A DNA stretch of 64,000 nucleotides from Candidatus Thioglobus sp. (lineage in GTDB: Bacteria > Pseudomonadota > Gammaproteobacteria > PS1 > Pseudothioglobaceae): the NCBI GenBank assembly GCA_012959965.1, contig DUCF01000026.1:1-64000 (forward strand), given 5' to 3'. The translations under genes and the position numbers were made by a program. The notes beneath the pieces are model-generated. The model searched no databases. It was not told where the DNA came from and saw nothing but the letters and a program-made list of their open reading frames with translations. Positions 3,151 through 20,853 of the stretch are shown here, piece by piece. Within the stretch, counting starts at the first letter, position 1. Each line of letters opens with the position of its first letter.

Positions 3151-3225
3151 TATGATTTTTTGTTGTTATTCTCTATATGATTTTTTGTTGTTATTCTCTA
3201 TATGATTTTTTGTTGTTATTTTCTA
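3151..3225. repeat. Three tandem copies of a 25-bp unit
   Basis: Units at 3151-3175, 3176-3200 and 3201-3225, each starting TATGATTTTTTG and ending CTCTA. Copies 1 and 2 are identical; copy 3 has one C-to-T change (TTCTA). The array starts about 10 bp upstream of the atp -35 box. Confidence 0.95.
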
Positions 3226-10762: not shown

Positions 10763-11308
10763 ATGACAAAAAAGAAAGAGCAAGACATCGAGCAAGAGCA
10801 AGCCCCTGAAGAGCAAGAAGTAGAGACAACAGAGACCGAAGAAGGGCTCGATATTGAGGCGCAACTCGCTGCCGCACAACAGTCCGCTAAAGACAATTGG
10901 GACAAAGTTCTACGCGCGCAAGCAGAAATGGAAAACCTTAAACGGCGCTCAGCAAGAGACTTGGAAAACGCCCACAAATACGCCCTAGACGGCTTTGTTA
11001 AGGCCTTACTTGAAGTTAAAGACTCTCTGTCTATGGGATTAAAGTCAGCCACCGAAGATGGTGCAACCGTCGAGCACATCGTTGAAGGCCTTGAAATGAC
11101 CGATAAGGTTTTCGCCTCAACGCTGGAAAAATTTGGTGTTGAAACGCTCAACCCTGTCGGCGATAAATTCAATCCCGAACTTCACGAAGCAGTGACCATG
11201 ATTCCAATGCCAGACAAAGAATCAAATTCAGTACTTGACGTGGTGCAAGTAGGCTTCACCCTAAACGGTCGCCTTGTTCGCCCTGCAATGGTGGTGGTTG
11301 TTCAGTAA
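10763..11308 (+). CDS. grpE: Nucleotide exchange factor GrpE
   Basis: Exchange factor that releases ADP from DnaK in the Hsp70 cycle. From the ATG at 10763 the protein is 181 aa; a TTG four codons upstream is possible. It has an acidic, Glu/Gln-rich N-terminal tail (residues 1-40), a long dimerisation helix ([21 protein letters not shown]), and the C-terminal beta domain with NPELHEAV and [16 protein letters not shown]. dnaK and dnaJ do not follow: the gene stands alone, ended by a strong terminator. Confidence 0.96.
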
Positions 11309-11384
11309 ATCGAAAATTTGCTAAATTTTGTAAAATAAGGCCAAAACACACGTTTTTTGGACAAATATTGGCTGTATTTCACAC

Positions 11385-11411
11385 AAAAAGGCACTTTTTA
11401 GTGTCTTTTTT
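11385..11411 (+). terminator. Rho-independent terminator after grpE
   Basis: Stem AAAAAGGCACT, loop TTTT, opposite arm AGTGTCTTTTT with one G-T pair, ending in a T run. Confidence 0.8.
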
Positions 11412-11566
11412 ATTACCTTCTCGCCAATCTTTGCTTTTTCGCAGAGGATTTCAACAGCATACCAACGGACAAATAGAAACGAATTAATTTGTCCTTTCGA
11501 TTAATATTTTTCGTTTATCTTCGTTATTAACTCTATAAAATTTCTTGGAGTTTATTAAGCATTACC

Positions 11567-11617
11567 AAACTGTTCTTATTAGGAAAAAACTGTTCTTATT
11601 AGGAAAAAACTGTTCTT
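11567..11617 (+). repeat. Tandem 20-bp repeat upstream of the serine operon
   Basis: Two perfect 20-bp copies (11567-11586, 11587-11606; unit AAACTGTTCTTATTAGGAAA) and the first 11 bases of a third. The 20-bp period is about two helical turns. The partial third copy reaches the -35 position of the predicted promoter. Confidence 0.9.
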
Positions 11618-11640
11618 TGAGTAGTCAAAGTGTTTATAAT
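11612..11640 (+). promoter_or_regulatory. Predicted promoter of the DUF1015-serC-serA operon
   Basis: Consensus -10 TATAAT at 11635-11640. A 17-bp spacing puts the -35 at GTTCTT (11612-11617), a poor match supplied by the third repeat copy. A perfect inverted repeat CTTTGA-GTAG-TCAAAG (11615-11630) sits between the two elements. The arrangement suggests an activator-dependent promoter. Confidence 0.5.
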
Positions 11641-11711
11641 GTTTTGCTGTGATTAGTGTTCTAAAATCACCGCCAAAAAATTGTATCGTCAATTATTAGC
11701 CTTAGCCCATT

Positions 11712-12944
11712 ATGTATTTAGCCAACCCATTCAAAGGATTAAGACCCAAAGGAGCAGAAGCTTCGTCTGTATCTCTTCCTAGTACGGACCACTTGTCTGA
11801 AGAAATGATCAGCGATTACAAGGGCAACAACCCTTGGAGTTATCTGAATATCTTTAGTCCGGAAGATCCTTGTTCAAAAACGGATAGTGAGCTAGAAGCT
11901 GAAGCAAGAGAAAAGTTCGGGGCAATGAAAAGCAGCTCGGCTATTGCAAAAGACCTTGAGAAAGCATTTTATATTTATAAAATTTCGACAGAAGGGCATT
12001 CTCAAGTTGGCATGATTGCTACGGCAAAAATATCCGACTATGACGATCTACATATTCGTGGACATGAGAAAATTTATGTCGAGAATTCTCAAAAAAGATT
12101 TGAACAAATCAAAAACCTAAACGCTCAAATAGGCCCTATTTATGTCGTCTACCCTGACGAAGCTAAATTGGCCAGCTTATTAGAAGAGCAAATCACTGTC
12201 GAGCCAACCTATTCTTTTGATGCTATAGACGGCTGTCAGCATCAACTATGGGTTATAGACGGCGAAGATACTGTGCTACAAATCAGAGAATTGTTTAACG
12301 CGATCCAGCGCACATACGTTGCTGATGGCCACCATAGAATTGCGGCGTTATCCAGATTCGCAGAATACAGAAAGCACCAGAATCACGACCACACGGGTGA
12401 AGAGTCATATAATTTCTTCATGATGGCCCTGTTCCCAGAAAGCCAGGCACGCATACTTGACTACAACAGACTGGTAAAAGACTTGTTTGGTTATTCTCCA
12501 AGCGACTTTATCGAGAAAGTTGAAGAGCACTTTATTGTTGAAAAACAAAACGCACCATACAAGCCAACTGCATTAGAGTCGTTCGGCATGTACCTGGATA
12601 ACACGTGGTACTCAGTTATCCTAAAAGATAAGCCAGAAGAGGCACTTTCAGGACTGATGAACTTAGATATTAATATATTGCATCACTACTTGCTTGACCC
12701 AGTTTTAGACATTGGCGACCCAAGACGCGATACAAGAATTGGTTTTATTGCCGGTTTTCACGGGCTTGAATCAATTGAAAAAAAGGTCGACTCAGGCGAA
12801 GTCGAAGTTGGTTTCTCTTTTTTCCCAACACCAATGGAACACGTAATAAACTTTGCTGACAAAAATTTAACAATGCCACCAAAATCGACATGGTTTGATC
12901 CAAAACCATTAGATGGCTTGGTAGCATACGACTTCGAGGACTAA
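11712..12944 (+). CDS. DUF1015 family protein
   Basis: Cytoplasmic protein of a widespread family without an established biochemical function. It is 410 aa, near the family norm, with the hallmark YVADGHHRIAA motif near residue 200 and a conserved start LANPFKGLRPK. It is the first gene of an operon, 6 bp before serC, and serA follows. DUF1015 genes recur beside serA/serC in other bacteria, so a role linked to serine or phosphoserine is likely but unproven. The ATG at 11712 has no clear ribosome-binding site. Confidence 0.88.
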   Translation: MYLANPFKGLRPKGAEASSVSLPSTDHLSEEMISDYKGNNPWSYLNIFSPEDPCSKTDSELEAEAREKFGAMKSSSAIAKDLEKAFYIYKISTEGHSQVGMIATAKISDYDDLHIRGHEKIYVENSQKRFEQIKNLNAQIGPIYVVYPDEAKLASLLEEQITVEPTYSFDAIDGCQHQLWVIDGEDTVLQIRELFNAIQRTYVADGHHRIAALSRFAEYRKHQNHDHTGEESYNFFMMALFPESQARILDYNRLVKDLFGYSPSDFIEKVEEHFIVEKQNAPYKPTALESFGMYLDNTWYSVILKDKPEEALSGLMNLDINILHHYLLDPVLDIGDPRRDTRIGFIAGFHGLESIEKKVDSGEVEVGFSFFPTPMEHVINFADKNLTMPPKSTWFDPKPLDGLVAYDFED

Positions 12945-12950
12945 ATCATT

Positions 12951-14099
12951 ATGATAACTAAGCCAACAACTAAACCGTCAAATCCAAACTTCTCAAGTGG
13001 CCCATGCTCTAAGAGGCCAGGTTGGGATATTAGCGCCCTAAAAAATGCCGATACTGGCAGATCACACAGAGCAAAGCACTGTAAAGCGAAACTTAATGAC
13101 GTTATTGTCAAATCAAGCACGCTTCTTGGCTTGCCTGAAGATTACACTGTAGCCATTATGGCAGGCTCCAACACCGGCGCATTAGAGGCGGCCTTATGGT
13201 CTCTTTTAGGTGCACGAGGTGTTGATGTTTTGGCTTGGGAGAACTTTGGTAAAGACTGGGTCAACGATATTTTGAACGAGTTAAAGCTTGATAACGTCAA
13301 CTCTTACGTTGCCGACTACGGTCAGCTGCCTGATTTGAGTCAAGCCAACTTTGATAACGACGTGATTTTCACGTGGAACGGTACAACAGCCGGCGTTCGT
13401 GTTCCTAATGCAGACTGGATTCCAGACGACAGAGAGGGTTTAACAATTTGTGACGCTACCTCTGCAGTGTTTGCCATGGACATGGACTTTAGCAAGCTTG
13501 ATGTTGTTACTTGGTCTTGGCAAAAAGTTTTGGGCGGCGAAGGCGCTCACGGCATGATTGCATTATCACCACGTGCACTAGAAAGATTAGAGTCGCACAC
13601 ACCTGCATGGCCAATGCCTAAAATTTACAGAATGGCGAGCAAGCTAAAAGTCTCTAAAGGCATCTTTGCAGGCGCCACAATCAACACCCCATCAATGATT
13701 TGTGTTGAAGACGTAATCGACGCACTAAACTGGGTTGAATCTGTTGGCGGCGCAGAAGCGTTAATTAAGCACTCAGACGAAAACCTTAATATTGTTTCTA
13801 GCTGGATTGATGGCAGCGACTCATTTAAGTTTTTATGTGACGACGAAAGCGCAAGATCTTCAACAAGTATCACTGTAGCAATCAAAGACGAATCATTCAC
13901 TAGTATGAGTGAAGACGATCAAAGAGCGCTTGTGAAGAAAGTAGTAACACTACTTGACGACGAAGGTGTGGCATTTGATATTGGCGGTTACCCGAAAGCA
14001 CCAGCTAGCTTTAGATTATGGGGCGGACCAACAGTACAAAACGACGACATGAAGGCAGTATTGCCGTGGATTGAATGGGCTTATCAAGAGGTAAAATAA
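12951..14099 (+). CDS. serC: Phosphoserine aminotransferase (alphaproteobacterial/Methanosarcina-type SerC)
   Basis: PLP enzyme converting 3-phosphohydroxypyruvate and glutamate to phosphoserine. It is 382 aa. The N-terminus [18 protein letters not shown] and motif [15 protein letters not shown] (Schiff-base lysine in WQKVLGGE) match the subfamily found mainly in alphaproteobacteria and Methanosarcina rather than the E. coli-type SerC. It sits between DUF1015 and serA and shares one base with serA (TAATG). The subfamily suggests transfer of the whole cassette, an inference. Confidence 0.92.
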
Positions 14100-15037
14100 T
14101 GTATAAAGTATTAATTTCAGACGCAATGAGTAACGTTGCGGATCAAATCTTCAACGACAAAGGTATTGAAGTTGACGTAACCACAGGACTATCCGAGCAG
14201 GAGTTGATTAACATCATTCCTGAGTACGACGGCCTACTTGTAAGATCAGCTACAACAGTCACAAAAGACATCTTGGCTGCTGCAACAAAGCTTAAGGCTA
14301 TTGCTAGAGCGGGTGCAGGCGTTGATAACATCGACTGCGCGACAGCAAGAGAAAACGGTGTTGTTGTAATGAACACACCGGGCGGCAACACCAACGCAAC
14401 AGCGGAACACGCATTTGCTTTAATAATGGCAGCACTTAGAAAAATTCCTTTCGCAGACGAAACAACGCATAAAGGCGAGTGGCAGAAGAAGGCCATTAAA
14501 GGCATCGAGCTTTCAAAGAAAACTCTTGGCATTGTTGGTTTTGGCAATATTGGCGCAAGACTTAGCCACTTGGTTAGTGGTTTTGATGTCAACGTACTTG
14601 TTTCCTCTAAGTCTTTAGAGTCAAGACAAGCAGAGTTCCCTCATGTTACCAACGTGAGCTTTGACGAGCTACTTGAGCAAAGTGATATTATTAGTTTTCA
14701 TGGCAAAGCGGCAGCCGACGGCAAGCCACTTGTTAGCAAAGAGCATTTCTCAAAAATGAAGTCTTCTGCAATCATCATCAATGCTGCTCGTGGCAACATG
14801 GTTGATGAGAGCGATCTTAATGATGCACTTAACGAAGGTCTAATCGCAGGCGCGGCTATCGATGTTTTCTCAACAGAGCCAGCTAAAGAAAACGTTTTGT
14901 TTGGCAATCCTAAGGCGATTCTAACGCCTCACCTTGGCGCTTCAACTGCTGAAGCATCAATCGTGGTTGCTGAAATGGCGGCCAATCAGGTTGCTGATGT
15001 ATTGCAAAACAACGTTGAGATTCACGTTGTAAACTAA
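14099..15037 (+). CDS. serA: D-3-phosphoglycerate dehydrogenase, short form
   Basis: Oxidises 3-phosphoglycerate to 3-phosphohydroxypyruvate, the first step of serine synthesis. I chose the ATG at 14099, which overlaps the serC stop and follows AAGAGGT (312 aa). Motifs: NAD-binding GIVGFGNIGARLS near residue 145, substrate Arg in INAARGNMVDE, and catalytic His in LTPHLGAST. The C-terminal ACT domain of the E. coli-type enzyme is missing, so allosteric serine inhibition of that kind is not expected. Ended by a strong terminator. Confidence 0.93.
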   Translation: MYKVLISDAMSNVADQIFNDKGIEVDVTTGLSEQELINIIPEYDGLLVRSATTVTKDILAAATKLKAIARAGAGVDNIDCATARENGVVVMNTPGGNTNATAEHAFALIMAALRKIPFADETTHKGEWQKKAIKGIELSKKTLGIVGFGNIGARLSHLVSGFDVNVLVSSKSLESRQAEFPHVTNVSFDELLEQSDIISFHGKAAADGKPLVSKEHFSKMKSSAIIINAARGNMVDESDLNDALNEGLIAGAAIDVFSTEPAKENVLFGNPKAILTPHLGASTAEASIVVAEMAANQVADVLQNNVEIHVVN

Positions 15038-20385: not shown

Positions 20386-20853
20386 TTAAGTTTTGTTGAT
20401 CGGTATTTTGGTTTCTTGCTTTAAAGTAGAAAGTACTACTAATGTTTTTAAGTGCTGGATATCTTGAATGTCTGTCAACTTATGAATGAGAAAATCCTCA
20501 TAGCCACTAATATTTTGGGTAGCAACTTTCAAGAGAAAATCTGCACCGCCAGTAATACGGTGACACTCCAGAACTTCTTGTAAATCAGTTATTTCTTCCG
20601 TAAATCGAAGTAGTGCGTCTTTGCCGTGTCGCGCTAGAGTCACTTCAACATAAGTAAAACAGTTGGTATTAACTTTAGCAGGGTCGACTATGGCAACAAA
20701 CCTTTTAATGTAACCATTGCTTTCCAGTTTTTTAACCCGCTCTAACGTTGTTGGTGGGGACAAGTTGACCATTACTGCGAGGTCACGATTTGTGAGACGG
20801 CCATCGTCTTGAAGAGCGTCTAGGATTTTTCTGTCAATGTTATCGAGCTGCAT
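20386..20853 (-). CDS. Lrp/AsnC family transcriptional regulator
   Basis: A 155-aa DNA-binding protein: N-terminal winged helix-turn-helix (LTNRDLAVMVNLSPPTTLERVKKLESNGYI, residues about 19-48) and a C-terminal RAM/AsnC effector domain starting near residue 65, with VLECHRITGGADFLLKV. Family members bind amino acids and control their metabolism. It lies between leucine-degradation genes and the 2-oxoacid oxidoreductase. Its own promoter carries the same 15-bp site (20946-20960) as those two units, so it is the best candidate for a local, autoregulated controller of branched-chain amino acid catabolism. Confidence 0.93.
   Translation of the reverse strand: MQLDNIDRKILDALQDDGRLTNRDLAVMVNLSPPTTLERVKKLESNGYIKRFVAIVDPAKVNTNCFTYVEVTLARHGKDALLRFTEEITDLQEVLECHRITGGADFLLKVATQNISGYEDFLIHKLTDIQDIQHLKTLVVLSTLKQETKIPINKT

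Follow-up and report, generated by a model that had tools for sequence, protein, structure and literature searches.

The operon DUF1015-serC-serA of Candidatus Thioglobus sp. begins behind a run of tandem 20-bp repeats, and the question that this locus raises is whether those repeats are a site at which serine synthesis is controlled. The sequence analysed, referred to here as the window, is a stretch of 64,000 nucleotides (contig DUCF01000026.1). A preliminary description of the same DNA proposed activation by a multimeric regulator at the repeats, combined with repression at a palindrome between the -35 and -10 positions. Comparison with related alleles makes it possible to treat these two elements separately.

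The Tandem Repeat and Its Promoter

On the plus strand AAACTGTTCTTATTAGGAAA occurs twice without change, in head-to-tail orientation, at 11567-11586 and 11587-11606. A third repeat start, the 11-nt AAACTGTTCTT (11607-11617, plus strand), extends the array to an uninterrupted 31-nt self-match at offset 20. Such a 20-bp tandem repeat is very far from what chance would give: when the whole window was randomised four times under a first-order Markov model, every self-match at offsets of 8-60 stayed shorter than 14 nt.

The inferred promoter has a consensus -10 hexamer, TATAAT, on the plus strand at 11635-11640, inside a block (11630-11655) where 24 of 26 columns are invariant among the alleles compared. 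A sigma-70 scan of 11300-11760 returned no promoters, and no -35-like hexamer is present. Transcription would start near 11647, and the operator coordinates used here (-80 to -41) all assume +1 at that position. On this numbering the distal copy spans about -80 to -61 and the proximal copy about -60 to -41, with the units centred near -70 and -50, two helical turns apart. Two A6 tracts 20 bp apart mark the repeat ends (-63 to -58 and -43 to -38), and the core of the unit apart from these tracts is TTCTTATTAGG. The repeats had been described as ending exactly at -35. The partial third copy does cover that position, but the full copies end at about -41 and there is no -35 hexamer for them to meet.

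Two other features were seen farther upstream. The plus-strand sequence TATAAAAT at 11534-11541, invariant in the four alleles, lies in an AT-rich region and is at best a tentative candidate for a second, upstream -10. A further conserved block at 11453-11512 has 41 of 60 columns invariant and carries imperfect AACGAAA...TTTCGTT arms in three of the four alleles.

Conservation Across Four Alleles

The four alleles compared are the window, a second allele from the same genome bin, and one from each of two other species of the genus; they represent three species bins, all of them metagenome assemblies. The bin of the window (G000) comprises 1.79 Mb in 95 contigs, and its second serine-operon allele (L009) is found on the minus strand of contig C34. 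The two copies are 80-90% identical (90% for serC at the DNA level, 81% for the DUF1015 protein). The L009 DUF1015 gene has a frameshift near codon 375. The allele could reflect a mixture of strains or species, or sequencing error, and C34 may come from a further species. The alleles from the two other species, L026 (G019) and L027 (G026), encode DUF1015 proteins 93% and 84% identical to that of the window, and the operon is preceded there by the same upstream gene.

The promoter of the window can be written as AAACTGTTCTTATTAGGAAA AAACTGTTCTTATTAGGAAA AAAC-24 nt-TATAAT. It reads GAACTGTTCTTATTAGGAAA AAACTGTTCTTATTAGGAAA AAAC-24-TATAAT in L026, AAACTATTCTTATTAGGAAA AAACTGTTCTTATTAGGAAA AAAC-24-TATAAT in C34, and AGAGTGTTCTTATAAGGAAA AAACTGTTCTTATAAGGAAA AAAC-25-TATAAT in L027. 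All four alleles have exactly two copies, and the distance to TATAAT is held at 24, 24, 24, and 25 nt although the spacer itself has diverged. The 44-base array is invariant at 38 columns, compared with 23 of 54 bases (43%) in the upstream flank, 6 of 19 (32%) in the spacer, and 40% of the four-fold degenerate sites of the adjacent gene. The excess is significant against the four-fold rate (binomial P ~4e-10) and against the flanks (Fisher P 2e-7), values that are inflated by the kinship of the alleles. In these alignments the array and the -10 block form two islands of constraint near the putative start.

Constraint is stronger in the proximal copy, with 19 of 20 columns invariant versus 15 of 20 in the distal copy. 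Across all eight copies, 15 of the 20 unit positions never vary, and the C at position 9 and the GG at positions 16-17 are identical in every one. In L027 a T-to-A change (giving TATAAGG) is found in both copies and is the sole change in the proximal one. A single protein that reads both copies would lead one to expect this pattern, though conversion of one copy by the other would also produce it.

The preliminary description had asked for this promoter to be compared in related genomes and had named freely varying repeat number as one result that would speak against its reading. The repeat is preserved in the four alleles while the flanks have changed, and a variable copy number was looked for and not found among them. 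These observations also bear on the possibility that the array is a functionless slippage duplication kept by common descent. Short tandem duplications are common, and another is present in the window at 3152-3224, where about three copies of the 25-bp unit ATGATTTTTTGTTGTTATTCTCTAT lie upstream of an NAD-glutamate dehydrogenase reading frame. That array varies between species, with three copies in the window and one in G019, whereas the copy number of the serine array is constant and its sequence has changed far less than its flanks and spacer. Slippage without function is accordingly a highly improbable account of the repeats.

The Palindrome and the Partial Third Copy

The same comparison gives a different result for the palindrome. 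The perfect CTTTGA-GTAG-TCAAAG (CTTTGAGTAGTCAAAG, 11615-11630) is present where it had been reported, but only the window and L026 keep it intact; in C34 and L027 it is broken. In random DNA of this composition about 25% of 100-bp stretches contain an inverted repeat with 6-bp arms and a 3-8 nt loop, and five of them occur in the 403-bp intergenic region where 2.0 are expected. The palindrome is probably a chance occurrence, and a role as a repressor site is not supported, given its loss in two of four alleles together with its chance-level frequency.

The partial third copy was likewise rejected as a site. The preliminary description counted two and a half copies, of which the two perfect copies stand; the half copy, lost in two of the four alleles, is not supported as an operator. 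Conservation extends no further than its first four bases, AAAC. The CTGTTC that follows is intact in the window alone and becomes CCGCTC in C34, CTGCTC in L026, and CTACCC in L027. A comparison of a few alleles was enough to tell the repeats, which are likely an operator, from a palindrome that is probably due to chance.

A Probable Two-Site Operator

The pattern of conservation makes it reasonably probable that the repeats form an operator with two sites. These identical sites, 20 bp from each other and centred near -70 and -50, would lie on the same face of the helix and be occupied by a single sequence-specific protein, bound either as one dimer or as two. Once bound, the protein would bring RNA polymerase to a promoter whose -10 matches the consensus but which lacks a -35, and the operator would thereby control DUF1015-serC-serA in one lineage of the genus. 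The idea of helically phased sites with a period of about two turns, put forward in the preliminary description, gains support from a two-site array kept in four alleles. Its regulator model holds up in part: the repeats beside a -35-less promoter fit an operator, and repression at the palindrome is not supported. Binding of a protein to the repeats is what the conserved letters suggest. Activation is likelier than repression because the -35 is missing. Sites placed upstream of a promoter with nothing like a -35 are the usual layout of an activator-dependent promoter, but AT-rich genomes often have promoters without one, and its absence is no proof of activation.

Two other readings of the repeats assign them a different role at the promoter. 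In the first, two adjacent sites are bound cooperatively by a repressor that blocks RNA polymerase, for example, when serine is present. Biosynthetic operons are often repressed by their end products, and the proximal site abuts the promoter. No part of either site, however, reaches downstream into the -35 position; both occupy the region in which activators usually bind, and the promoter has no -35 that would give it basal activity. Repression through these sites is unlikely on this layout. In the second, no dedicated regulator is involved, and the A-tracts serve as a factor-independent UP element touched by the alpha subunits of RNA polymerase, or as a phased bend. The two A6 tracts 20 bp apart, upstream of a promoter without a -35, would suit such a role. 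An UP element would nevertheless allow A and T to be exchanged and would require no exact repeat, while the C and GG positions are as conserved as the A-tracts in all eight copies, so that conservation is not confined to A and T. A role for the A-tracts on their own is therefore quite unlikely. An RNA leader element was also considered and rejected, with a fold z-score of -0.88 and no Rfam match at E values up to 1.

Candidate Regulators

If the repeats are a two-site operator, the best guess for the protein that binds them is a LysR-type regulator, a choice that comes from the geometry and from the TTC-N7-GAA (T-N11-A) core. LysR-type promoters have a T-N11-A motif near -65 (PMC8407307). Here a T-N11-A box with an imperfect dyad (TTCTTATTAGGAA, 11573-11585) is centred near -68 and pairs at five of six positions, which gives it the form of a LysR box; the dyad in the 20-mer is not significant alone, as about 11% of random 20-mers have an equally good one. 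This promoter shares with LysR promoters a pair of neighbouring sites, spaced by about two turns, ahead of a poor -35, and the TTC-N7-GAA cores, which have their centres at -68 and -48, could accommodate a LysR-type tetramer. LysR promoters generally combine a recognition site near -65 with an activation site near -35 that is usually the weaker match. The present sites differ in being identical to each other, and the operon has no adjoining LysR gene.

The search for a linked or autoregulated gene gave no support to any particular family member. LysR matches number 13 in G000 and eight each in G019 and G026, and none adjoins the operon. A matrix built from the eight copies was run over the flanks of every LysR match of the three species and every Lrp match of G000 and found no site; nothing there scored above 7.5 bits, against 28-34 for true copies. 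A regulator need be neither linked nor autoregulated, and the result lowers the case for LysR without excluding it.

Lrp is a regulator with a known connection to this pathway. In Escherichia coli the targets of Lrp include serA and serC (PMC2374795), and the likeness to the present operon lies in serine-synthesis genes as targets. One Lrp-type gene, near 20425 in the window, is on the same contig as the operon, an arrangement not found in G019 or G026. Lrp is not supported here, since its consensus YAGHAWATTWTDCTR misfits the repeats; the best match nearby is 11 of 15, and a 13 of 15 match sits on the -10. The three species that carry the repeat have more LysR- and Lrp-type regulators (8-13 and 6-11 matches, respectively) than most of the genus.

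Two other families share parts of the architecture. Class II promoters of AraC/XylS regulators have head-to-tail asymmetric repeats beside the -35, about two turns apart. The period here is exactly 20 bp rather than 21, and the full copies stop a few bases before the -35. AraC-type matches number three in G000 and three and two in the other species. OmpR-type regulators, which are present in all three species, use tandem 20-bp sites that end near -39, and the array resembles these in period and end position. It differs from them in that the unit is not built of repeated 10-bp half-sites; by inspection, its two halves agree at 2 of 10 positions.

Distribution of the Putative Operator

The tandem core pattern, searched with up to three mismatches, matches these four promoters only among 29 genomes of the genus and 83 of the order, and a reversed control pattern gave zero matches in the 83 genomes. 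A wider regulon is not apparent, with no other tandem site in the 83 genomes at the same tolerance. Single-site matches with up to two mismatches in G000 were about as frequent as with the reversed control (19 versus 13).

The gene order DUF1015-serC-serA is also found in a second clade of the genus, in genomes G003, G007, G011, G014, and G017 (L013-L017, L063-L067). The operon occupies a different chromosomal place there, adjoining what appears to be a lipoyl-transferase-like gene, and its promoter differs. The operon start regions of G007, G014, G017, and the partial G004 have no repeat of this kind, so the operator goes with one location of the operon and not with the operon everywhere. It seems that the DUF1015-serC-serA module has been placed at least twice in the genus.

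The Operon and the Missing Last Step of Serine Synthesis

All three genes lie on the plus strand, downstream of a same-strand gene that is grpE-like by inspection and separated from the DUF1015 start at 11712 by 403 bp. The DUF1015 gene (PF06245, E 1e-77) spans 11712-12944. It is followed by serC (12951-14099), a phosphoserine transaminase of the TIGR01365 type that scores above the curated cut-off, and serA (14075-15037), a short phosphoglycerate dehydrogenase that falls below the TIGR01327 cut-off because the C-terminal part is absent. The homologous serA frame probably starts at an internal ATG at 14099.

The DUF1015 family has an invariant ADGHHR, and the predicted structure (mean pLDDT 89) has a SerK/SbnI-like fold. 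Foldseek matched it to SerK chains (5x0e and others) and to SbnI, with E values of 1.7e-7 to 4.5e-5 and TM scores of about 0.35 by query and 0.52-0.58 by target; sequence searches of the PDB with DUF1015 gave nothing useful. A 2025 survey of the ParB fold lists DUF1015 as a fusion partner, printed as DU1015 (PMC12704722). No paper was found in a literature search on DUF1015 and serine.

The SbnI match raises the possibility that the DUF1015 protein itself acts at the repeats to regulate the operon that encodes it, much as has been reported for the relative SbnI in siderophore synthesis. SbnI is described as a heme-inducible regulator, and EdeB, which has an SbnI-like domain, binds its promoter (PMC9641203). 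Against such autoregulation, the operon is found in G007, G014, G017, and the partial G004 without these repeats upstream, and SerK and SbnI have no ParB helix-turn-helix (PMC12704722). Control of the operon by its own first product is thus very hard to credit.

No SerB above the curated cut-off was found in the three repeat-bearing species (G000, G019, G026), while most relatives of comparable completeness have one. The link between the DUF1015 operon and SerB absence is suggestive only; G011 and G017 of the second clade have both, and G002 has neither. SerK converts serine and ADP to phosphoserine and AMP (PMC5120207). This chemistry run in reverse, or a hydrolytic variant of it, would complete serine synthesis, and by its predicted fold DUF1015 may be a candidate for the missing last step from phosphoserine to serine. 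The combined proposal, that DUF1015 replaces SerB as the last enzyme and that the whole pathway is under a dedicated two-site operator with an undescribed regulator, is speculative and rather improbable.

The repeats offer a sharp and testable candidate for a serine-synthesis operator in gammaproteobacteria of a small-genome lineage that has received little study. The operon may matter more than the operator, given that it joins a protein with a predicted SerK/SbnI fold to serA and serC in species that lack canonical SerB. This place beside serA and serC, in species without it, makes the function of DUF1015 directly testable.
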